A program made the translations under genes and the position numbers. 64,000 nt of DNA from Methylobacterium sp. AMS5 (lineage in GTDB: Bacteria > Pseudomonadota > Alphaproteobacteria > Rhizobiales > Beijerinckiaceae): positions 1,617,501-1,681,500 of the forward strand of contig NZ_CP006992.1 in assembly GCF_001542815.1 (NCBI RefSeq), written 5' to 3'. Positions 38,216 through 53,461 of the stretch are shown here, in pieces. The number at the start of each line of letters is the position of its first letter. Position 1 is the stretch's first letter. The notes beneath the pieces were generated by a model. The model made no database searches, had not been told where the DNA came from, and saw only the letters and a program-made list of their open reading frames with translations.

Positions 38216-38290
38216 GCGGGCGTAGTTCAGTGGTAGAACGTCAGCTTCCCAAGCTGAATGTCGTCGGTTCGATCCCGATCGCCCGCTCCA
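38216..38290 (+). tRNA. tRNA-Gly(CCC)
   Basis: The cloverleaf is complete. The acceptor stem is GCGGGCG/CGCCCGC, the D-arm is TAGTTCAGTGGTAGAA, and the anticodon stem TCAGC/GCTGA has loop TTCCCAA (anticodon CCC). The T-arm is TCGGTTCGATCCCGA, with encoded CCA at 38288-38290. It marks the left edge of the accessory island and is a plausible integration site. Confidence 0.95.
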
Positions 38291-38760
38291 AAAAATCCTC
38301 AAGCCCAGGCATACGCTTACGAGGACCGCGCACACGTACGCCCGTTGATCGGCTGTCTTCCGTACAACGAAGGGTACAACCCACCGGGGACGATGTGTCG
38401 CACTGCGGATCCGGGAGCGGGCCGACGGTTGCGCAAGGTACGATGCAACGGCCTACGCGGCAGGCGATACCTTCGTCGGGACGTGTTCTGCGTCGAAATG
38501 CTCTCCCAGGTTCAAGGCGCTCGAAGCGAGACGTGGGGCGACATCCATTCCTCCTAGCTCTGCGTCCCAGTCGTCTCGAGGCTGTCGAGGTACATCAGTT
38601 AAATCCACTGTCGCGATCCGGTTGCGGCACGCTAGCGGAGCTCTCCGGTGGTCGGCTTGGACCCGCAAGGCCGTTCCTTCCGACCGAGCGGCAGGAGGAG
38701 CGTTCGGGTCGCCGACGGGCCGTCGGGTCAAGCCGAAACAGCAACCCGCGATGCCCGAAG
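38291..38760. other. Gene-poor stretch after tRNA-Gly
   Basis: About 470 bases with no recognisable gene. Composition is less GC-biased than the core, and several short frames on both strands have no coding character. This is the first sequence of the island. Confidence 0.5.
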
Positions 38761-39355: not shown

Positions 39356-39800
39356 GACATCATGCGCTTGGCCTTCCGTGATCTTCAGCGCCACGGGACG
39401 CCCTTCGGCATCCACCAGCGCGTGGATCTTGCTTGTCAGGCCGCCGCGCGAGCGACCCATGCCACCGGATCCGCCCTCTCTTTTGGGCGCAGGCGGCATG
39501 CTGATGCACCCGCACGCTCATGGCGTCGATCATCTGCAGGTCGCCGTCGTAAGCCTTTGACGCCGCGTCCAGAAGCCGATCCCAGATGCCACGCTTGCGC
39601 CAGCGCCGGAAGCGCTTGCCGCAGGTCGTATGCGGGCCATAGCGCGCCGGGATATCGGCTCAGGGTGCACCCGTGCGCAGCTGCCAGAAGATCCCGTTCA
39701 GAACCCGCCGGTCGTCCAAGCGCTCCTTGCCACGCACGTCCGTCGGCAACAGCGGATCGATCACCGCCCACTCAGCATCCGTCAGGTCAAACCGCGCCAT
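39353..39800 (-). pseudogene. IS5-family transposase fragment (nonsense and frameshift)
   Basis: Reading from 39800 the protein starts MARFDLTDAEWAVIDPLLP and runs through a DUF4096-type N-terminal domain. A TGA stands where RTGAPWADIP expects Trp (near 39659). The frame continues to QMIDAMSVRVHQHA, then needs a shift near 39500 to reach MGRSRGGLTSKIHALVDAEG and GQAHD. It ends at the IS66 junction at about 39353. It is doubly inactivated and truncated. Confidence 0.85.
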
Positions 39801-39835
39801 CCTGGCCCCTCCTGCTCAGCAGGCTAACGATGCTG

Positions 39836-43023: not shown

Positions 43024-45147
43024 TCAGACTGCGGCCGCGCGGCAACTCCAGGCAGTACGCTCCATCGTCGCGAAGCGCGATGTATCAAGGCCACGGATCG
43101 TCTGAGAGTCCGCCTCGACCAGCGCGTCGTAAGCAAGCCGCCAGTAGCCATTCTTCACGAAACGGCGAACCCGACTTTCGACGAGGGGGTCCGAGAACGG
43201 CGGCGGCAACGATCGAAGCCCCCGGTCGTTTCTCAAATAGAATAGCGCGGCATCCATGATCAGACGTCCGTCGTCGAAAGGCCAGTGTCCGATAACGTCG
43301 GTGAGGATGCGCCAATCTGCGTTCGTGAGTGAGTGCTCCTTTCGCTGAGCTTTGGCCAACAGCGACGCGTCAATCTCCACGAGATTGGCGCGCCTCGTCT
43401 TCGGCGGCGGACACACCCTACGGACGGTGACAGGATCCAGGCCGGCCAGCGGGATCCGATTGTTCCGGGTGGCGAGGGCGGAAGGCGCGAACGTGATCTC
43501 AAGCGTGTACCCAGCCTCGCCTTCGGGTTGATCGATCACGACCTTCTCGACGAGATCCCTCAAAGTTTGCACGAGAAGAAGATCGGCTTCGTTGGTTGCG
43601 ACCATCGGCAGACGTCGAATGAGTTCGTCCATCTCGCTCCGCAGCGAGACGAAATCTACGGGTTCGGCGCGGGGCATCGATGCCACATTCGGAAGACTGG
43701 CCAGAGCGAGGCGGTGATCGGCCCGTTCAGCCGTCTTCCGCGCGCGGGCGCGTTCCAAGTCTTCGTCCGTACCACCTTTGTTAATCGAACGGTCGATGCT
43801 CTTCTCTAGCCAATCGTCGATTTTGACGATCCGGCGCAGACGTTTCTTCATCTCGCGGGCAACTTCCTCCTCAATACGGCGCAGCTGAGCCTCGTACTCA
43901 CGGGCGTATGTCGAGAGATCGGCCGAAGTCAGGAGAGTATCCCGGATTTCGCGCAGCACCTCGCATTCGACGAACGTCGAACTTACACTGCGGGATCTGT
44001 CGCAGCGACCGCCTTCCGACTCTGCGTAGCAGCGGAGGCTCCGGGTCGCCGTAGCTCTTTTGAAACTTGCGGCCACGGATGCTCCGCAGACACAACGATA
44101 CCGCCCGTGGAACAATAGCGTAGATTTCCCGCTGGCTTTTTCACGAGGTTTCCTGACACCTTTCTCATCGTTCATGCGTTTGAGGCGGCAAAGTACGCGC
44201 AACCATAGACCCCGATCGACGATGCCCCATTCCGGCTTGGCTCCGTACACCCAGTTGGTACTGGGCCGCATTTGTACTATCTTAGAAATATTGTCGAGGC
44301 GGCGGACCCGTTTCCTCTTGCCGTAGATGTACACGCCGACGTACTTGGGATTGCGGAGAATGCCGCTACCAGATCCAGCGGTTCCGATGATCACGGTGCG
44401 AGTCCATTGAGCCTTCCCCGACGGGGACGGGACGTCCTCGCTGTTGAGCAGGCGGGCGATCCGGGTAGCATCCACGCCGCTGTCGAAAAGTCTGTAGATC
44501 CTGGCGACCACGGCGGCTTCCTGCGGGACGACGACGAGTTCGCCGACGTCCGCACCGCAGCGGTAGCCATATGGAATTCCGCCGAGATGGCGGCCTCTCA
44601 GAGCTGAGCGCCATGCGCCTTGGCTCATAAGCCGGAGCATTCTCTCCCGCTGCTCCATCCCTATGAAGCCATAGAACACGGCGTGGACGTCATCGACCGG
44701 GCCGACGCCTCCGCTCGTGACATGTATCTCGATGCCGAGCGCCTTCAACTCCTGGTAGATCTGCAGGACATGGGCTACGTTCCGCGAGAGCCGATCGAGA
44801 TGTTCGCAGACCAGCTTGTCGAACCCTTTGCCGCCCTCACGGGCCAGCAGGCGCAGCGCGGCCAGATCGTCCCGGCCTTCGAGATAGAAGCCCGATTTGC
44901 CACGATCGACGAAAAGATGGCCGGATGCTACGGGCGTCATGCCGTTCAGACGTGCATAGGTTTCGCACCCTTCGATCTGACGATCTATACTAGTTTCCCT
45001 CTGTCCTTCGGAAGAATATCGGCAGTAGTACACGCATCTATCGCCGGCAACCATGGCTGGCGGCGCCGGGGCGTGCATGGCGGTCCACGCCTCGGGCAGC
45101 AGGTCGGCGACGGATTCGGCCGATCCATGCGGTATATGTTTGGGCAT
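43024..45147 (-). CDS. Large serine recombinase with C-terminal DUF4096-like domain (second of tandem pair)
   Basis: The 707-residue recombinase (ATG 45147; ATG 45207 is possible) has a resolvase-type catalytic domain. Its signature is VYYCRYSSEGQ with the presumed nucleophile Ser45, then LVCEHLDRLSRN and a long recombinase domain (GIPYGYRCG, ILRNPKYVGVYIYG). Cysteines of a zinc ribbon (CVCG...C...CD) and an Arg/Glu-rich coiled coil at about 430-500 follow. Residues 607-707 (LTNADWRILTDVIG, RLIMDAALFYLR, LRSLPPPF, RRFVKNGYWRL) resemble DUF4096 from IS5 transposases, unusual for this family. It lies 117 nt after the first recombinase, same strand. Confidence 0.88.
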   Translation of the reverse strand: MPKHIPHGSAESVADLLPEAWTAMHAPAPPAMVAGDRCVYYCRYSSEGQRETSIDRQIEGCETYARLNGMTPVASGHLFVDRGKSGFYLEGRDDLAALRLLAREGGKGFDKLVCEHLDRLSRNVAHVLQIYQELKALGIEIHVTSGGVGPVDDVHAVFYGFIGMEQRERMLRLMSQGAWRSALRGRHLGGIPYGYRCGADVGELVVVPQEAAVVARIYRLFDSGVDATRIARLLNSEDVPSPSGKAQWTRTVIIGTAGSGSGILRNPKYVGVYIYGKRKRVRRLDNISKIVQMRPSTNWVYGAKPEWGIVDRGLWLRVLCRLKRMNDEKGVRKPREKASGKSTLLFHGRYRCVCGASVAASFKRATATRSLRCYAESEGGRCDRSRSVSSTFVECEVLREIRDTLLTSADLSTYAREYEAQLRRIEEEVAREMKKRLRRIVKIDDWLEKSIDRSINKGGTDEDLERARARKTAERADHRLALASLPNVASMPRAEPVDFVSLRSEMDELIRRLPMVATNEADLLLVQTLRDLVEKVVIDQPEGEAGYTLEITFAPSALATRNNRIPLAGLDPVTVRRVCPPPKTRRANLVEIDASLLAKAQRKEHSLTNADWRILTDVIGHWPFDDGRLIMDAALFYLRNDRGLRSLPPPFSDPLVESRVRRFVKNGYWRLAYDALVEADSQTIRGLDTSRFATMERTAWSCRAAAV

Positions 45148-45264
45148 CGCGACGATCCAGTTCAGCATGGAGCACGCGCCAATCATGCTGCCTGGGTGCC
45201 ATGGCATCCGGGCAGCCGAGCGCAGCTTGAAGGGAGAAGTTCGGTACCGGTTTCTTCGATTGTT

Positions 45265-47220
45265 TCAGGCCGAGCGGCGCGCCGCGAAGCGGTTTCGATC
45301 GATGTCCCGGACTAGATCGGAACCCAACGCATCCAGTGCGGCGAGCATGCGCGGCCAGAAGCCGAACTTTCGGATCGGTCCCATCTGTAGCACCCTTCCG
45401 GCGTAGCGTTCAGGCAGCATGTTGATTGGCATCCCGGTACGGGCGACGAAGATCAGAGCCTCCGCATAGAGACGATGACCGCCCTTCAGCCGTCCCATGG
45501 GCTCGAAGAGGTGTGCGACAGCCGACCATTCCCGCTCTGTGAAGGCGTACCGTCCGGCCGCCGCATCCCGATGATGCTGCAGAACGGCTTCGGGTCGCCG
45601 GATGATGCCTCGAGGCGGCTGAGGGCACGGACGTCCGATCCACCTGACGGAATCGGGCTGCGGCATGTCCTCCTTAAGCCCCGCGCCGAGCACGCCGAGC
45701 AGGAAGCGCAGCTCGATCTGCCCGTTTCGCCGTTCGACGACCATGCGGGGGACGAGTTCGTGCATGCGCGAGACCGCTGCGATCTCCTGCGGATCGGTCG
45801 TCCTGTACGGGACCTTGACAATCATGCCGGATATAAGTGTTCGCAGCGCTTTCGCTTCGGTTTCTTCGAGGCGCAGCCCCGTCAGCGAGCGCAGTTTCTC
45901 CCGCTTCTCCCAAAGATCGTGGAACTCGGCTTCCAGCGGACCGACGATGGCGGAGGCGATCGGATCGTCATGGAACTCGTCACCGAACGAGTCCAGATCG
46001 GAACCGATCTGGTCAAGGCGCATCTGCAGAAGCGAGCACTCGGCAGTTGCCTCCAGATTCATCTTCTCGAGGCACTTGGTACGTACGCTATCCCAATGGG
46101 AGAAACGCGAAGGCTCCAGAACTTCGTCGAGGAGCACGCGATAGTATTGCCTCTCGGCTTCGTCCTTCGGAATCCCTGTACCCTCAGTGCAAGGATCCCA
46201 ATGCGGCTCCTTGGAGCAGATGATCCAGCTTCCGCTTCGCGTCATGGGCATGCCGCAGCTGCAACGGACCTTGCCGGTCAGCAGGCCCACACCCCTACCC
46301 TTTCCCCAGGGCAGAGCTGCGGAACGGCTCAGCTTTTCCTGGACCCGATCAAACAGCTCGGCATCGACGATGGCGAGGTGCGGCGTCTCGATCGTGATCG
46401 GATCGTTCGTTCCCCGAGCCCAGGTCCAGGTGCCTTTGTAGACCGGATCCTGAAGAAGGCCGTAACCGTTCCGGCGGTGCAACTGACTGATCGCCCAGGG
46501 ACGCCCTCGGAGCGCTACGACGCCTTCGGCCTTGAGGGCCTTGACGAGCTGTCGGCGGGTCATCCCTCCGTCGATGCGCTCGAAGCATCTTCGGACGATC
46601 AAGGCTTGTTCGGTATTGACGACAAACCCGCGATCATCGGGAACACGATCATAGCCGTACTTCGGTCGACTGCCGATCATGCTGCCGCTCCGTGCAGCTC
46701 GACGGCGGCCGTCGTTGATCCGCTCGACGAGCGCATCGAGCTCCTTCTGGTGCTGAAAGGAGCTCAGGATCATTTCGCTTCCCGAAATGCTGCCCCGGGT
46801 CACGACGTGGATCGTGATGCCCAAGCTCTCGAGTTCGGCATGCATCACGGCGGCATCGGCCACGTTGCGCGTCAACCGTTCGAGTCCCTGCACGACCAGA
46901 GAGTCGAACAGCCCGGCTCTTGCCGCTGCCAGCAATGCATGCAGCGCAGAACGTCCGGCCATTGTTCTGCCGGAACGGTTCCGGTCGATAAAAATGTGAC
47001 GTTCGGGATCGAGGGACGCGCCGATCACCCGGCAATATTCTATTCCGGCGCTAATCTGCCGTGCGATGCTCACAAAGTCCGGATCCGAAGACGATCTTCG
47101 AGCATAGATGGCTGCTCTAGGAGGACCATCGCGGCCCGTGTCGGACGGTGCGCTATGTTGGTCGACCCAATCGGTCAGGAATGCCGGAATGCGTCCCACT
47201 TCAGATGTATCGTCATGCAT
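45265..47220 (-). CDS. Large serine recombinase with C-terminal DUF4096-like domain (first of tandem pair)
   Basis: The 651-residue recombinase has AAIYARRSSSD with presumed nucleophile Ser43 and SLVVQGLERLTRN. The recombinase domain contains GSRPKYGYDRVPDDRGFVVN and LLQDPVYKGTWTW, and a zinc ribbon has CSCGMPMTRSGSWIIC. A helical segment rich in Leu/Glu (about 410-470) follows. Residues 560-651 (FTEREWSAVAHLFEP, HRLYAEALIFVARTGMPINMLPERYAG, IRKFGFWPRML) resemble DUF4096. It differs strongly from its neighbour in sequence, so the pair is not a recent duplication. Upstream lies a short AT-rich region and a run of small genes on the same strand. Confidence 0.88.
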   Translation of the reverse strand: MHDDTSEVGRIPAFLTDWVDQHSAPSDTGRDGPPRAAIYARRSSSDPDFVSIARQISAGIEYCRVIGASLDPERHIFIDRNRSGRTMAGRSALHALLAAARAGLFDSLVVQGLERLTRNVADAAVMHAELESLGITIHVVTRGSISGSEMILSSFQHQKELDALVERINDGRRRAARSGSMIGSRPKYGYDRVPDDRGFVVNTEQALIVRRCFERIDGGMTRRQLVKALKAEGVVALRGRPWAISQLHRRNGYGLLQDPVYKGTWTWARGTNDPITIETPHLAIVDAELFDRVQEKLSRSAALPWGKGRGVGLLTGKVRCSCGMPMTRSGSWIICSKEPHWDPCTEGTGIPKDEAERQYYRVLLDEVLEPSRFSHWDSVRTKCLEKMNLEATAECSLLQMRLDQIGSDLDSFGDEFHDDPIASAIVGPLEAEFHDLWEKREKLRSLTGLRLEETEAKALRTLISGMIVKVPYRTTDPQEIAAVSRMHELVPRMVVERRNGQIELRFLLGVLGAGLKEDMPQPDSVRWIGRPCPQPPRGIIRRPEAVLQHHRDAAAGRYAFTEREWSAVAHLFEPMGRLKGGHRLYAEALIFVARTGMPINMLPERYAGRVLQMGPIRKFGFWPRMLAALDALGSDLVRDIDRNRFAARRSA

Positions 47221-47483: not shown

Positions 47484-47945
47484 TTATATCTCGAAATATT
47501 CATCCTCCTGTAGTTCGAAGGAACAGGCTTTCGGAAGATTTGTCGTAGGGCACCTGCACTCGTATCGCCCGGATTTTAGCCGATCGCTGTAATCGTTCCA
47601 GGCACGCCAGCGCGCAAGAGCCTCGATAAACGTAGGAGGGACTGCGTCGGAACTTATTGGTTCTCCGTGTCGATCTGGGTCCGGGTTCCGATGCACGGAT
47701 GGCTTGTCGCCGGAACTTCGGAAGGGCCGGATGGTCCGAGTATTGATTGCGGAGTGCGATGCTGGATCCCGCGTCGGATCGACGATTTCCCAGACTGTAG
47801 GAGGCTTCCAGATCGTCGTCGGCCTATCCGTGAGAGGCGACTGCACGACCTCGGTCGGCGTCTCGTCGGAACCGCTTCCAACCTGTCCGCGCCGGTCAGG
47901 CATTGCGGTCTCCGAGGCGGTAGAACCGGGAGAAGGTTCGGGCAT
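47484..47945 (-). CDS. Hypothetical protein, Pro/Thr-rich N-terminus
   Basis: The 153-residue protein is not recognised. The first 100 residues are Pro/Ser/Thr/Arg-rich and look disordered. The last 50 (FIEALARWRAWNDYSDRLKSGRYECRCPTTNLPKACSF) look folded, with two Cys pairs. The start overlaps the 3' end of the next gene upstream by 50 nt, suggesting coupling, or a later true start. It belongs to the minus-strand run leading to the recombinases. Confidence 0.45.
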   Translation of the reverse strand: MPEPSPGSTASETAMPDRRGQVGSGSDETPTEVVQSPLTDRPTTIWKPPTVWEIVDPTRDPASHSAINTRTIRPFRSSGDKPSVHRNPDPDRHGEPISSDAVPPTFIEALARWRAWNDYSDRLKSGRYECRCPTTNLPKACSFELQEDEYFEI

Positions 47946-48216
47946 AACCTGCGAAGGGATCGAAGGTTATTAGCCCGCTGGTCCTGCACATCGCTCCGTC
48001 GGCGATCTCCGGATGACCAACGACGATGCCTTGGAGATGAGGGATGGGGGCGATGAAGACGCGCCAATCCAACAGGAGCGGAGCATCGCGGAGTTTCCTT
48101 TCGTCGGGATGCTGGCCTTCAGAGATGCATTCCAGATCATCGGCGAGCGAGCGATACTTGCAGGCTAAGCGACGGAGACAGGGAAACGGTCCCGGCCCGG
48201 TGTTCAGAATCGACAT
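47896..48216 (-). CDS. Small conserved protein resembling DUF6634
   Basis: This 106-residue protein has the pattern LRRLACKYRSLADDLECISEG, LRDAPLLLDWRVF, IVVGHPEIADG, TSGLITFDPFAGYARTFSRFYRLG. From memory this matches a family of short proteins of unknown function in Rhizobiales annotated DUF6634; this was not tested. The ending SRFYRLG is the strongest cue. It is co-oriented with the recombinase operon. Confidence 0.6.
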   Translation of the reverse strand: MSILNTGPGPFPCLRRLACKYRSLADDLECISEGQHPDERKLRDAPLLLDWRVFIAPIPHLQGIVVGHPEIADGAMCRTSGLITFDPFAGYARTFSRFYRLGDRNA

Positions 48217-48873: not shown

Positions 48874-50889
48874 TCAGTGCCGAGCGAGTCCTTGAAGGAG
48901 GGCCTCGACTTCCGAACCATCGAGTGCACGTCTTTCCAACAGAGCATGCGCAAGGCCCTCAAGCTGGTTGCGTCGGTCCAAGAGGATGGATGTTGCGACT
49001 CGAGAAACTTTGCGTAGATCGCGTTCAATGGCAGCAGCGGCCGCTTTAGGCACCGAATTGGATGCGTCGGCTGCGATCCGCCCTCCCAATCCCCAGCTGC
49101 AATGCATGTTGCGGCACAGAGTCGTCGCTTCGGCGAGATCGGTTGCAGCTCCCATGCTGGGAGCGCCGTACACGATCATTTCTGCAGCACGGCCGGCAAG
49201 ATAGACGGTCAGTAGATCGCACAAGCTGTCTCGGGTTGCATATCTGCTACGGAAGCGAAGTCCGGTCATGCCGCCGATCTCGGAAGTGGAATGAAGTTCT
49301 ACTTCGCGCAGCCGGAATCCGAGAGCGTGGGCGACGACTGCGTGACCGGATTCGTGCACTGCCGCGCGCTTGTCGTCGGCGCCGGTTGCGGCCGAGCCAC
49401 CGATCTCCCGCAATAGATCCGCGATCGTGACGGCGCGGTTGGCTCGTCGCGCGCCGGCACGGGCGCGACGCACCCAAGCGGCACAGTCTGCTCCTGTTCC
49501 ACCCAGTGCGCACCGCGCCGCTTTCATCAGGTCGATGTTGCGGAGATCCCCGCCGAGATGGTGGCGCAGGATCGCAGCGAGGTCGACGACACCAGGTAGC
49601 GAGATGGTGATGCACCGATCGAAGCGACCGGAACGGAGTACAGCAGAATCGATTAGATCCCGATTATTGGTGGTCCCGACGAGGAGCACTCCATCGCGGC
49701 CTTCGCTGCCGTCCAAGCACTCCAGCAGTCCGTTAACTACTTGGACCGAATAATGGCGGTGGTGGGCGGCAAAGCAACTTCGGTCGCCGAAGGAGTCGAG
49801 TTCGTCGATTAAGGCAACGCAGGGAGAGGATTTTCTAGCCGCATCGAAGTAATCTCGCATGGCTTTCAATGTCGTGCCCAGGTGGGCCTCGCCGGCCGAC
49901 TGCCATTGTGCTAGAGAGCCGGCGAGCAGTGGTACGCCTGCTTGGCAGGCGAGAGCGTGTGCGAAGATGGTTTTTCCCGTTCCCGGCGGACCCACCAAAA
50001 GGGCTCCAGGGTCGCAGGCCGTCCATGGAAGCGCGTTCTGGGCGTAGGCCGCCAGATCGGCAGCCGCTCCCATGCCCCATTCCGCTGCTGCGCCATAGCC
50101 GGCTAGGTCCTGCAATCGCGGCCCGTCCGCGATGCGCCGGCGCGACATCCGCGCCTTCACGACGTCGGAGAGGCGCTCGACCGATCCATCGGCGCCTCTA
50201 GCGGAGTGCACCGCGACTCGAAGGTCGCCCGCCTCGACTGCGGACGCGACCTCGCTGACAAGGGAGCGACTTGGCCGACATCCGACCACATGCTCCACGA
50301 CGAGGTCCACCGCTTCCGGATCGAAGCTGCCGACGACCAGCCGATCCTCGCAGGCCCTCAGGAGGTCGCCCGGTAAATGCTCGTGCGTGGACGACGCTAC
50401 CCCGATCAGCGGACGTTGTTCGCGGAACGCCTGAGCCGTGCGGCGGTCGCTCGGGCAGCCTGCTAGGACAATTTTTGCACTAGCAGTGACGACGACGATT
50501 CCCGTTCCGGTATCGCACTTCAGCCTAGCTCCGCGCCGGTCGCTGCTCGAAGGCCTTGCTTGGCCAAAGCAGTCGATGAGCGCCTCCGCCATCGGATCGA
50601 TCCAATCCTGCTGAGGAACTTCGACGATCAGGACAGGCGCGGCGCTCTCCATCCTATCGAAAAGGCCGTTGCGCGTCGCGAGGGCGAGGCCAAGAAGGAC
50701 GATCGCACCGACTACGTCCGGATCGTGTGGGAGTGGATCGTCGTTGACGCTCCCGGCGAATGCCTCCGCGGCCGCAAGTGCCGCGCACCGACGGCGCAGG
50801 AGTCGTCGGACGACTTCTGGTCCGTCCGGATTGATCCGACCGAAGCTTGCCCTTGCAGTGCCCGCCCGCTTTCGGATCTCCGGTTTCAC
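48874..50889 (-). CDS. Soluble FtsH-like AAA+ ATPase / M41 metalloprotease
   Basis: The 671-residue protein starts at GTG 50889, overlapping the preceding stop as GTGA. The N-terminal ~260 residues are not recognised and lack a clear transmembrane helix, unlike FtsH. The AAA+ module follows: Walker A VGPPGTGKT (about 299-307), Walker B CVALIDELDSFG, sensor VGTTNN and arginine finger GRFDR. The C-terminal M41 domain has HESGHAVVAHALG (zinc ligands, about 512-516) and GAATDLAEAT with the third ligand Asp. All catalytic residues seem intact. Its place upstream of two serine recombinases suggests proteolytic control of the element, such as repressor turnover; that is inference. Confidence 0.85.
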   Translation of the reverse strand: MKPEIRKRAGTARASFGRINPDGPEVVRRLLRRRCAALAAAEAFAGSVNDDPLPHDPDVVGAIVLLGLALATRNGLFDRMESAAPVLIVEVPQQDWIDPMAEALIDCFGQARPSSSDRRGARLKCDTGTGIVVVTASAKIVLAGCPSDRRTAQAFREQRPLIGVASSTHEHLPGDLLRACEDRLVVGSFDPEAVDLVVEHVVGCRPSRSLVSEVASAVEAGDLRVAVHSARGADGSVERLSDVVKARMSRRRIADGPRLQDLAGYGAAAEWGMGAAADLAAYAQNALPWTACDPGALLVGPPGTGKTIFAHALACQAGVPLLAGSLAQWQSAGEAHLGTTLKAMRDYFDAARKSSPCVALIDELDSFGDRSCFAAHHRHYSVQVVNGLLECLDGSEGRDGVLLVGTTNNRDLIDSAVLRSGRFDRCITISLPGVVDLAAILRHHLGGDLRNIDLMKAARCALGGTGADCAAWVRRARAGARRANRAVTIADLLREIGGSAATGADDKRAAVHESGHAVVAHALGFRLREVELHSTSEIGGMTGLRFRSRYATRDSLCDLLTVYLAGRAAEMIVYGAPSMGAATDLAEATTLCRNMHCSWGLGGRIAADASNSVPKAAAAAIERDLRKVSRVATSILLDRRNQLEGLAHALLERRALDGSEVEALLQGLARH

Positions 50890-51719
50890 GGCGCGGATCC
50901 TTCCTCGCAGGCAGGCACCTCGACCAACCCGGGACATGCGAGCTCAATCATGATCAGCACCTCCCGCGAAATATATTTCGGCGGAGCCGAGCTTGCGGGG
51001 TTGAGCCGTTTCCTCAGCCTCGAGCTGATTAGTTCGGTGTTGCCGCTCCGGCGGATGGCGCATTCGATCCCGGCCAGTGCGGCCGACCGCTCCGGCTCTC
51101 TAATCGGCAACCCACCCAGCAACAGAACGTGGCGGCTGCCGCATCGACCGGAACCTGCGCCGAAGGCGCGGAGGCGACGTCGCCAATCTACCGCGGGCAG
51201 TAGCTGGACGGTGGTCCGCCGCTGGCTATCGCAGCCGATCAAGAGACAGGCCTGGATCCTGTCGCGGAGGCAGAACTCCATCAGAAGCCCGACGCCGGAT
51301 ATCGGGGCGAACACGATCCACGCCGTCGATCCTTGCAGTCGGAATGCGAAACGCCCGAACGGATCACCAGCAAGTCTCAGCTCGTACGTGGGATTGCCGG
51401 CAGATGGTCCGAGCCGGACGGGTGTACCTCCACACTCGGCGGCATGGCGCATCGCGAGCCGCGCCGCCGACGCCGGGGTCAAGACGCCGTCACGGGCGAG
51501 CCAAGTCAACCGATCGACGGTATCATCGCCGATGCCAACCAGCTCGCTCAATCTGATTAGAAGCTGTCCTTCGGGGCCGACACCACCAGGTGCAGTGGGA
51601 CGTCGGCTCGAAAGCTTCCGAACCATGTCACTGACTGTCCGATGCCCCGATCTCCCGTGCAGCTTGCCGACACAAGGGCGACCCGTCGGGAATTCGACCA
51701 CGATTCCTCTGCCGACCAT
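50886..51719 (-). CDS. Hypothetical protein coupled to the AAA/M41 gene
   Basis: The 277-residue protein is not recognised. ATG 51719 follows GGTGGAG at a good distance; the frame is open upstream to about 52103 but overlaps another gene. Features are VRKLSSRRP, an Ala-rich helical middle (DGVLTPASAARLAMRHAAECGG), and a probable beta-rich part (YELRLAGDPFGRFAFRLQGSTAWIVF, ACLLIGCDSQRRTTVQLLPAVDW). The TGA stop shares bases with the GTG start of the AAA/M41 gene, so the two products are probably made together and may interact. Confidence 0.6.
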   Translation of the reverse strand: MVGRGIVVEFPTGRPCVGKLHGRSGHRTVSDMVRKLSSRRPTAPGGVGPEGQLLIRLSELVGIGDDTVDRLTWLARDGVLTPASAARLAMRHAAECGGTPVRLGPSAGNPTYELRLAGDPFGRFAFRLQGSTAWIVFAPISGVGLLMEFCLRDRIQACLLIGCDSQRRTTVQLLPAVDWRRRLRAFGAGSGRCGSRHVLLLGGLPIREPERSAALAGIECAIRRSGNTELISSRLRKRLNPASSAPPKYISREVLIMIELACPGLVEVPACEEGSAP

Positions 51720-51792
51720 GATGCGAACTCCACCTGCGGGGGGGGTAGGAGGGGGCAATGGCTCCGGACATCGAACGCGTCCGAGCCATCCG

Positions 51793-52557
51793 CTAGCGTG
51801 GATACAGGGGTACGGCCGTAGCTTCGATTGAATTGGATGGATCCTGCTCGTCATTCGCAAGCATCCGCCACCCGAGGCCAGCCCAATCGAAACTCTCGGT
51901 ATCGCGTCCGATACGAACGATACTCTGCTCGGCGATCTCCGCAGTGAGATCGATTTCGAGGTATCCTCCGAAGACGAGTCCGAAGATTCGCTCTTTTGCA
52001 AATGGGCTACCAAGAGCGGTCTCGCAGGCAACGAGCGAAGCCTGCCCACCATGCTCCTCAATGCACCGGATCGCCGAACCTGCATCACCCCGGATCGGGA
52101 CAAGTTTGTCGTGGAAAATTCGGTGGGCGTTGCCGAGGCGGGGTTCCGCCTGGATCTCCGCCGGCGGTGCGATTAGAGTCAGATGCCTATGCGCCGGAAC
52201 ACGCAATCCGACCGATAGTGCAATGCCGTGCAGCCTTGGATGCGTCCAGGTACGGTAGGTCGGAACGATTACGTCATACACGACATCCCACGCACGAAAG
52301 CGGACTGCTGTGACTGCATCCTCGCCAAGGCCGGCTTGCGCGAGCCGTTGGCAGAGTTCCTGCTCGATGCCAAGACGGATGGCGCCATGCACAACCGCCA
52401 GGACCGATACCTCGTATCTAAGTCGCTTGGTGTTGCTGTAGCCACGCCGAAGCCGCCAAGCCAAAGAGGAAAGAGGACGCACGCGCCGCCGCGGGAAGCA
52501 ATGATTTGGAAGCATGAGGCGACCGTCGATCTCGGCCGTCTTGGGACGACCGCGCAT
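51793..52557 (-). CDS. Hypothetical protein, first gene of the minus-strand cluster
   Basis: The 254-residue product is not recognised. A basic N-terminus (FPRRRVRPLSSLAWRLRRGYSNTKRLRYEV) is followed by VSVLAVVHGAIRLGIEQELCQRL and a mixed alpha/beta C-terminal half (IFGLVFGGYLEIDLTAEIAEQS). The basic start would suit nucleic-acid contact, but no fold is evident. It lies 73 nt upstream of the 277-residue gene. Confidence 0.55.
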   Translation of the reverse strand: MRGRPKTAEIDGRLMLPNHCFPRRRVRPLSSLAWRLRRGYSNTKRLRYEVSVLAVVHGAIRLGIEQELCQRLAQAGLGEDAVTAVRFRAWDVVYDVIVPTYRTWTHPRLHGIALSVGLRVPAHRHLTLIAPPAEIQAEPRLGNAHRIFHDKLVPIRGDAGSAIRCIEEHGGQASLVACETALGSPFAKERIFGLVFGGYLEIDLTAEIAEQSIVRIGRDTESFDWAGLGWRMLANDEQDPSNSIEATAVPLYPR

Positions 52558-52778: not shown

Positions 52779-53138
52779 ATGCACATTGCCGTCAACCCGA
52801 GCGAAAACTTCAATTTTCTTGGCGCGCGGCACTTCCGTGCCGCGCGCGTCCTCCTGGACTGGACTCAGGAGGACCTCGCTCGAAACGCTCGTGTCGTTCG
52901 GCGCACTATCGCGATGCTGGAAAGTGGCGATTGCCGGACTCAGCCCCGCAAGGTGCGAGCGGTGTTGGCGGCCCTTCAGGCAGCCGGTATCAGTTTCAAG
53001 TGCGGTGCTGACGGCAAGGTCAGTCTGATCGATGCGAACGCGCATGCTGGCGTAGATCGCGCCCCGCCTCGCTGCGGCTCAGGCCGCTCCGAGCGCCTGC
53101 GGACGAGAGTCAGCGGTCGGCGTCCGGTCGCCGTATGA
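52779..53138 (+). CDS. XRE-family helix-turn-helix protein
   Basis: This 119-residue protein contains an XRE-type HTH, FRAARVLLDWTQEDLARNARVVRRTIAMLESGD (about residues 20-52), followed by a helix KVRAVLAALQAAGISF typical of small phage or plasmid repressors. It is divergent from the minus-strand cluster and may regulate it. Its last 29 nt overlap the convergent XRE gene. Confidence 0.75.
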   Translation: MHIAVNPSENFNFLGARHFRAARVLLDWTQEDLARNARVVRRTIAMLESGDCRTQPRKVRAVLAALQAAGISFKCGADGKVSLIDANAHAGVDRAPPRCGSGRSERLRTRVSGRRPVAV

Positions 53139-53349
53139 GTTGCCAGGGCTCGAGCCGGAGGGCCTCGGCCAAGCGCTCAAGATTGTCGATGGAGAGATTT
53201 CTCAAGCCGCGCTCGACGCCACTCAGGTAGCTGCGATCCATCTCGCAGAGATCCGCGAGGGCGTCCTGACTGAGCCTCTTCTCGGCCCGGATCCGCCGCA
53301 GGTTCGTTGCGAGGATCTCCCGAAGAGCACCTGGGTGGGTTCGTTTCAC
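53110..53349 (-). CDS. XRE-family transcriptional regulator
   Basis: The frame contains a complete XRE HTH: LRRIRAEKRLSQDALADLCEMDRSYLSGVERGLRNLSIDNLERLAEALRLEPWQLI. GTG at 53349 gives a compact 79-residue repressor; the frame runs on to 53451, but that part reaches into an IS-like end and has no family sequence. It resembles Cro/CI-type control proteins near restriction or integration modules. Confidence 0.75.
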   Translation of the reverse strand: MKRTHPGALREILATNLRRIRAEKRLSQDALADLCEMDRSYLSGVERGLRNLSIDNLERLAEALRLEPWQLIRRPDADR

Positions 53350-53437
53350 GCGCGCATCGAGCGCGGCTGTGGACGATAAGGCGACGGACTTTAAGTCACA
53401 TTCGCATCTTCTCCTTCTACTGCAGCGACCTATGGAG

Positions 53438-53461
53438 TGATCCACCCCCACTGAAGTGGTT
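53438..53461. repeat. Solo IS3-type terminal sequence
   Basis: TGATCCACCCCCACTGAAGT and the next four bases match the left end of the IS3 element at 54661-54684 in 22 of 24 positions. No transposase of that type follows, so this is an orphan IS end or recombination scar. Confidence 0.65.

Follow-up and report, generated by a model that had tools for sequence, protein, structure and literature searches.

Why should two large serine recombinases (LSRs), encoded one after the other, both end in about 100 residues that resemble a piece of an unrelated transposase? The question is raised by a stretch of 64,000 nucleotides from Methylobacterium sp. AMS5 (NZ_CP006992.1, positions 1,617,501 to 1,681,500), here called the window. 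Two LSR genes lie in tandem on its minus strand, recombinase B (45265..47220, 651 aa) upstream of recombinase A (43024..45147, 707 aa). A sequence-only reading of the window had given these coordinates correctly, leaving the strand unstated, and had proposed that both C-termini resemble DUF4096 (PF13340), the N-terminal domain of IS5-family transposases; the motifs that it quoted are present letter for letter.

Our comparisons indicate that the LSR lineage of this pair has almost certainly acquired an IS5 transposase N-terminal domain at its C-terminus, after the zinc-ribbon and coiled-coil region. The overall reading that we favour, and to which we give an even chance, is an LSR lineage that has recruited an IS5 DNA-binding module as an accessory reader, with A and B probably acting together.

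The recombinases and their C-terminal tails

Up to the tail, both proteins have the same order of catalytic, recombinase and cysteine-ribbon regions as the serine integrases (phrog_95, matched at 205.6 and 221.3 bits). The Resolvase N-terminal domain (PF00239, cut-off 23.3 bits) is found in the two proteins at 78.4 and 67.2 bits and the Recombinase domain (PF07508, cut-off 21.1 bits) at 57.9 and 58.3 bits, corresponding to residues 39-153 and 208-323 of A, and 36-179 and 204-299 of B. A cysteine-rich ribbon follows at about residues 313-357 of B. The zinc-ribbon family PF13408 reaches 16.5 bits in B, against a cut-off of 25.3, and A is not among the matches listed; four cysteines of the ribbon region are conserved in both the A family and the B family. 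The Ser and Arg of the Y-x-R-x-S and (D)R-x-x-R motifs, which we take to be the catalytic residues, are retained in A and B. In B, where the second motif reads R-L-T-R, a Glu stands in place of the Asp before the Arg; across B and the recombinases of loci L061, L063, L068 and L069 this position holds Glu, Cys or Ser, with the Ser and Arg residues intact. For A we use the ATG at 45147, where the alignment of most relatives begins, while an alternative upstream ATG at 45207 gives 727 aa.

Compared with the serine integrases, the A/B family has an additional C-terminal extension of about 100 residues of DUF4096 type, present once, twice or three times. The tails of A and B are approximately 95-105 residues long. 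That of B comprises residues 557-651 (45268..45552, minus strand) and matches PF13340 at 21.8 bits (E 2.3e-4), and that of A comprises residues 604-707 (43027..43338, minus strand) and matches at 13.2 bits (E 0.11 for the whole protein, 0.0072 for the tail alone). Both scores are below the curated cut-off of 34.3 bits, and the two tails share only 22% identity. The NCBIfam model for IS5 transposases matches the tail of B at 22.1 bits, against a cut-off of 110. In a Pfam scan no DDE catalytic domain family is matched in A or B.

The relatives make the match clearer. DUF4096 is found at the C-terminus of all ten relatives studied, five of A and five of B, at 16.0-33.0 bits and thus still under the cut-off; PF13340 is present in the precomputed database annotation of three of them, so the architecture is visible to automatic annotation in some members. 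In a second set, drawn from other Methylobacterium genomes, all ten tailed recombinases scanned match DUF4096 and three exceed the cut-off (L066 with 45.8, L070 with 68.9 and L074 with 72.0 bits). Further, a serine recombinase of 1058 aa in genome G164 (L128:6183-9356) has three tandem DUF4096 stretches and reaches 127.7 bits. In total four relatives are above the cut-off, three of these with two or three copies. When the tails are scanned as isolated segments (19 from recombinases that score above 15 bits, with two more from L110 and another from L022), DUF4096 is matched in 21 of the 22, while every other family is limited to at most one member.

The similarity also holds in the other direction. 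Aligned with hhalign to seven IS5 open reading frames (ORFs) of the same genome, the tails give a probability of 97.3 and an E-value of 2.7e-11. A tail profile, A7, searched against 385 genomes of the class finds mostly ORFs of the size of OrfA (best E-value outside the own genome 5.9e-22), and among the matches listed from other genomes no frame exceeds 331 aa. Nine of the tail-profile matches, eight of OrfA size and one of full length, were scanned, and each contains DUF4096 (88.7-111.8 bits). Reciprocal and profile-profile matching between the tails and the IS5 N-termini are both positive. As a control, the tail profile gives no match at E 0.01 in 19 recombinases picked as tail-less; n_G043x, which is without a core match, is left out of the counts. 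Judged by these comparisons, the relation between the tails and DUF4096 is genuine at the level of the family.

The tail is predicted to fold as a domain of its own. For the last 120 residues of A, modelled by AlphaFold2 with 20 tails, the mean pLDDT is 94.2 and the pTM 0.86, and six helices form one all-helical domain. For B, modelled with 17 sequences, the mean pLDDT is 78.6 and the pTM 0.48; residues 551-640 are helical, with block pLDDT values of 74-93, and the last 11 residues are lower. The sole structural match of the tail that stands out is BFVD A0A8D4KEB7, an unnamed 137-aa protein of the viral set (probability 1.00, E 0.094).

Over the DUF4096 stretch B shares 70-86% identity with five relatives, all of which align over residues 557-625; over the catalytic part it shares 74-76%. 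For A, compared with its five closest relatives (P0021-P0025), the identities are 58-70% in the tail and 83-89% in the catalytic part. The alignments indicate that the tail is maintained in both proteins. In B its conservation is close to that of the catalytic domain, which makes an origin as debris unlikely.

Distribution of the tail and history of the fusion

In the profile searches of the genus and the class, 39 and 11 candidates were scored per genome and the best matches were listed, so that the counts are lower bounds. Within the genus, a tail match with E <= 1e-15 inside an open frame of more than 600 aa is found in at least 20 of 111 genomes, among the matches listed, which extend to an E-value of about 3e-14. 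Tandem pairs of tailed recombinases occur in at least five of the 111: G000, which is the genome of the window, G018, G050, G011 and G032. A sixth pair, outside this set, is located on the megaplasmid of M. extorquens AM1, and the gene order is B then A in all six.

Other tailed recombinases are single, so the A-B pair is not obligatory. Nine of the 20 genomes have, among the matches listed, a single chain with two modules (the G071 and G042 types); P0034 also has two DUF4096 modules. Single enzymes with one module are found in G072, G021, G009 and G044, and the single three-module enzyme is that of G164. In G072 and G021 (L068 and L069) a sub-threshold match to DUF3489 follows the DUF4096 tail. 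On plasmid pCMU01 (L111:14881-18370) and in G043, a short recombinase ORF without a tail match is followed by a tailed recombinase.

In an order-wide search of 397 genomes, with two candidates scored per genome, recombinase matches with E <= 1e-35 are found in 75 genomes, and the tail is reached only in the two that belong to the genus. In the other 73, all 80 recombinase matches listed stop by profile position 568 of 706, short of the tail; a few of these frames are long, among them those of G721 (892 aa) and G799 (760 aa), and here the result refers to the extent of the recombinase-profile match. The tail is also absent from all 20 viral recombinases examined. The sequence-only reading had regarded two outcomes as fatal to its proposal, namely that profile searches would find no DUF4096 or that the tails would be ordinary LSR C-termini, and neither is what we observe.

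A quick tree of the recombinase core, calculated with the tails removed for 51 rows, places the 33 tailed rows on one side of a branch (SH-aLRT 97) and needs a single tail change. In a more careful tree of 49 rows, made without the long branches n_G123 and G164_3m, the A proteins form a clade with support 99/99 and nine B rows a clade with 100/99; the first recombinase of G032 is unplaced. In a tree of 38 LSR tails and 21 IS5 domains, one branch can split the two groups, and the third G164 module takes a basal position on the IS5 side. We conclude from the core and tail trees that the fusion is old and arose either once or on a few occasions, and that the pairing of A with B is long-standing.

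What the tail may do

According to PMC3783163, each half-site of a serine integrase is bound by the recombinase domain together with the zinc ribbon, and the coiled coil controls synapsis. We think it rather likely that the added helical domain retains sequence-specific DNA binding and adds a contact beside the core attachment site. Placed after the coiled-coil region, it would reach DNA that lies further out, or touch the same half-site in a different orientation, as we infer from the origin of the domain; a tailed enzyme would then read a longer or differently oriented site. The sequence-only reading had proposed a separate target-recognition module, and the tail may recognise a separate target. 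The net charge of the B tails of the window group is +5 to +8, and that of 16 OrfA rows (two of them identical) is on average +6.1.

The co-inheritance of A and B is observed directly. Their joint action is a further step, and we rate as slightly short of an even chance the proposal that they are old paralogues travelling head to tail, B first, which probably work together on the sites of the island with one module each, while some single relatives instead hold two or three modules in one chain. A putative heteromeric integrase or excisionase formed by A and B, as had been suggested, is plausible in view of their co-inheritance and of the analogy with CcrA and CcrB discussed below.

Several results weigh against this picture. 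The pairs are a minority: of the 20 genomes of the genus in which a tailed recombinase is among the matches listed, five have a pair and the other 15 have no tandem tailed pair, contrary to the idea that the two genes always occur together. Attachment sites and empty sites were looked for, and none was found for any pair. The careful core tree requires two tail changes, so that one fusion event is not assured; just 6% of its 200 bootstrap trees unite the tail-less rows in one group. With one change in the quick tree against two in the careful one, we do not claim that the tail arose only once. The branch that would hold the tails together, separate from IS5, is weakly supported (79). Finally, the A tails of the window group (winA, P0021, P0023 and P0029) are weakly basic, with net charges of +1 to +4, and over all 38 tails the net charge spans -8 to +10, so some tails may have a role other than DNA binding.

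The last point leads to the strongest of the alternatives, that the tail no longer binds DNA and is a protein-protein contact, which joins A and B or controls direction in the manner of the coiled coil of serine integrases. It would fit the A tails, which in addition to their low charge diverge faster than the catalytic part; the B tails do not. It would also fit the presence of one tail per member of the pair, and a two-module single enzyme could replace a pair. However, three of the one-module singles (G072, G021 and G009) have no tailed partner within the 18-20 kb examined, and in two of these three the sub-threshold DUF3489 after the tail is another possible DNA-binding domain. We consider a role in protein contact rather unlikely.

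The tail could also direct the enzyme to IS5 itself, by recognising IS5 ends, so that the island integrates beside resident IS5 copies. The relation of the module to the IS5 N-terminal domain would agree with this, as would an IS5 OrfA remnant in the window (39363..39815, minus strand, broken by a TGA), 3.2 kb from A, and the 28 matches above the DUF4096 cut-off in the genome. But a hidden Markov model of the tail finds no other IS5-like ORF at E < 0.01 in the 20-32 kb surrounding each of the five further pairs (L061-L064 and L110), a search of modest sensitivity, as one resident IS5 scored E 0.16. Further, the tail tree separates most LSR tails from the IS5 domains. Such targeting is thus improbable. 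The same remnant had been the comparison on which the sequence-only reading based its transposase-domain fusion. The architecture stands as a family trait and is strengthened by the four relatives above the cut-off; a fusion with the window's own remnant does not stand, and this origin of the tail is rejected because related tails are found in relatives across genomes.

Even less probable is that the tail is an inert relic, left when an IS5 insertion provided a new 3' end and drifting since then. The low identity between the tails of A and B would be in line with drift. So would the stretch after DUF4096, which aligns with the motif of the IS5 catalytic Asp (profile column 104) in all 11 OrfA proteins where the motif was found, out of 15 examined, as expected of a captured 5' half of orfA. 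Of the four OrfA proteins without a match, three hold a similar stretch that was missed by the pattern. In the AlphaFold2 model of the A tail the stretch is helical. With a profile of this stretch only, 14 real sequences score no better than shuffled ones (the real ones reach 2.7 bits at most, the shuffled ones 2.2 bits at the 95th percentile and 6.5 bits at most), and we do not claim that the captured piece includes the first catalytic Asp. Against a relic stand the conservation of the B tails at the level of the catalytic part, the two and three copies in relatives, and the confident predicted fold. That these are ordinary LSRs whose C-termini resemble DUF4096 through convergent helical patterns, as the sub-threshold scores of the window proteins alone might suggest, is hardly credible. 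It is refuted for the family by the relatives above the cut-off, three of them with repeated copies, and the 80 recombinase matches listed elsewhere in the order, which stop before the tail, also speak against it.

If we return to the accessory reader, a wider version of it can be formulated, which we regard as doubtful: IS5 DNA-binding domains would have become a module that serine recombinases can use repeatedly for reading DNA, with one per partner in a heteromer and two or three lined up in a single enzyme, and the number and type of modules would set how much DNA is read beside the crossover. It is difficult to change the sites that serine integrases choose, and if this version is true it would represent a natural route to serine integrases with changed site choice. 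In any case two unrelated families of DNA-moving enzymes are joined in one chain here. As an extra, probably DNA-binding domain has been added and multiplied in nature, it can be tested whether such domains extend or redirect the recognition of attachment sites. The tail is also a folded and constrained copy of the IS5 N-terminal domain outside a transposase, and can be used to study that domain.

Related systems and the surrounding island

Compared with OrfA of the two-ORF IS5 elements (PF13340), presumably of the IS427 group, the tail is the counterpart of the N-terminal DUF4096 domain; A and B lack the DDE catalytic domain and have DUF4096 placed behind a serine recombinase. The staphylococcal cassette chromosome (SCC) likewise encodes two tandem LSRs, CcrA and CcrB (NCBIfam NF047343). 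Neither is known to carry DUF4096. The best NCBIfam match of A and B is CcrB, at 52 and 98.1 bits and far below the curated cut-off of 900, and the neighbours of A and B differ from those of the Ccr genes in being an AAA+ M41 protein and DUF6634. As stated in PMC7581432, SCC is excised and integrated by CcrA and CcrB. A multi-targeting LSR clade, which includes TndX-like enzymes, also has an extra domain, DUF4368, of unknown function and described in PMC10083194 as correlated with target habit; the extra domain of the A/B family is a different one. An open-access literature search returned no description of a serine recombinase with DUF4096, nor of tandem LSRs in Methylobacterium; a table in PMC5897793 has DUF4096 as an entry.

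The island that contains the pair starts exactly 3' of a tRNA-Gly (CCC) gene (38216..38290, plus strand). Similarity to five relatives stops at 38290 (boundary 38290-38291), and past this point the five have little in common with each other too. From these alignments the tRNA gene looks like an insertion hot spot. The genome has 12 tyrosine-integrase matches, the nearest approximately 0.8 Mb from the pair.

Upstream of B there is a block of genes that are all on the minus strand. It begins with a small DUF6634 protein (47896..48216, Pfam 45.6 bits), a conserved neighbour that is 64-71% identical in three pair loci and 39% in the element of G048. It is followed by an FtsH-like AAA+ protein with an M41 zinc-protease domain (48874..50937), a frequent but not exclusive neighbour, and by two conserved proteins without a Pfam match, one (50886..52103) with homologues in four other tailed-recombinase loci and one (51793..52557) with a homologue in L062. 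The block is kept in G018 and partly in G050, G011, G032, G164 and the two-module element of G048. An HTH_3 regulator (53113..53460, minus strand, Pfam 49 bits), with a 90% identical ORF in L062, marks the edge of the block common to the window and that locus. In Methylobacterium, FtsH-like AAA+ M41 proteins form an accessory family that is widely distributed, with several per genome in some cases; they are often near tailed recombinases and are common without them too.

In G048 the two-module gene is part of a continuous 60.7-kb block (G048:C4:272077-332809). G018, G070 and G078 share this block at 98.8-99.2% identity, and it is found in pieces in G068 and G156 at 97.5-99.4% identity. The left end of this block was not found. 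The right end coincides with the 3' end of a gene, and the DNA beyond it is 82.7-90% identical. An identity of 97-99% within the block between different species, against 82.7-90% in the flank, suggests that the block was recently transferred into one site. The two-module recombinase is located about 18 kb inside the block.

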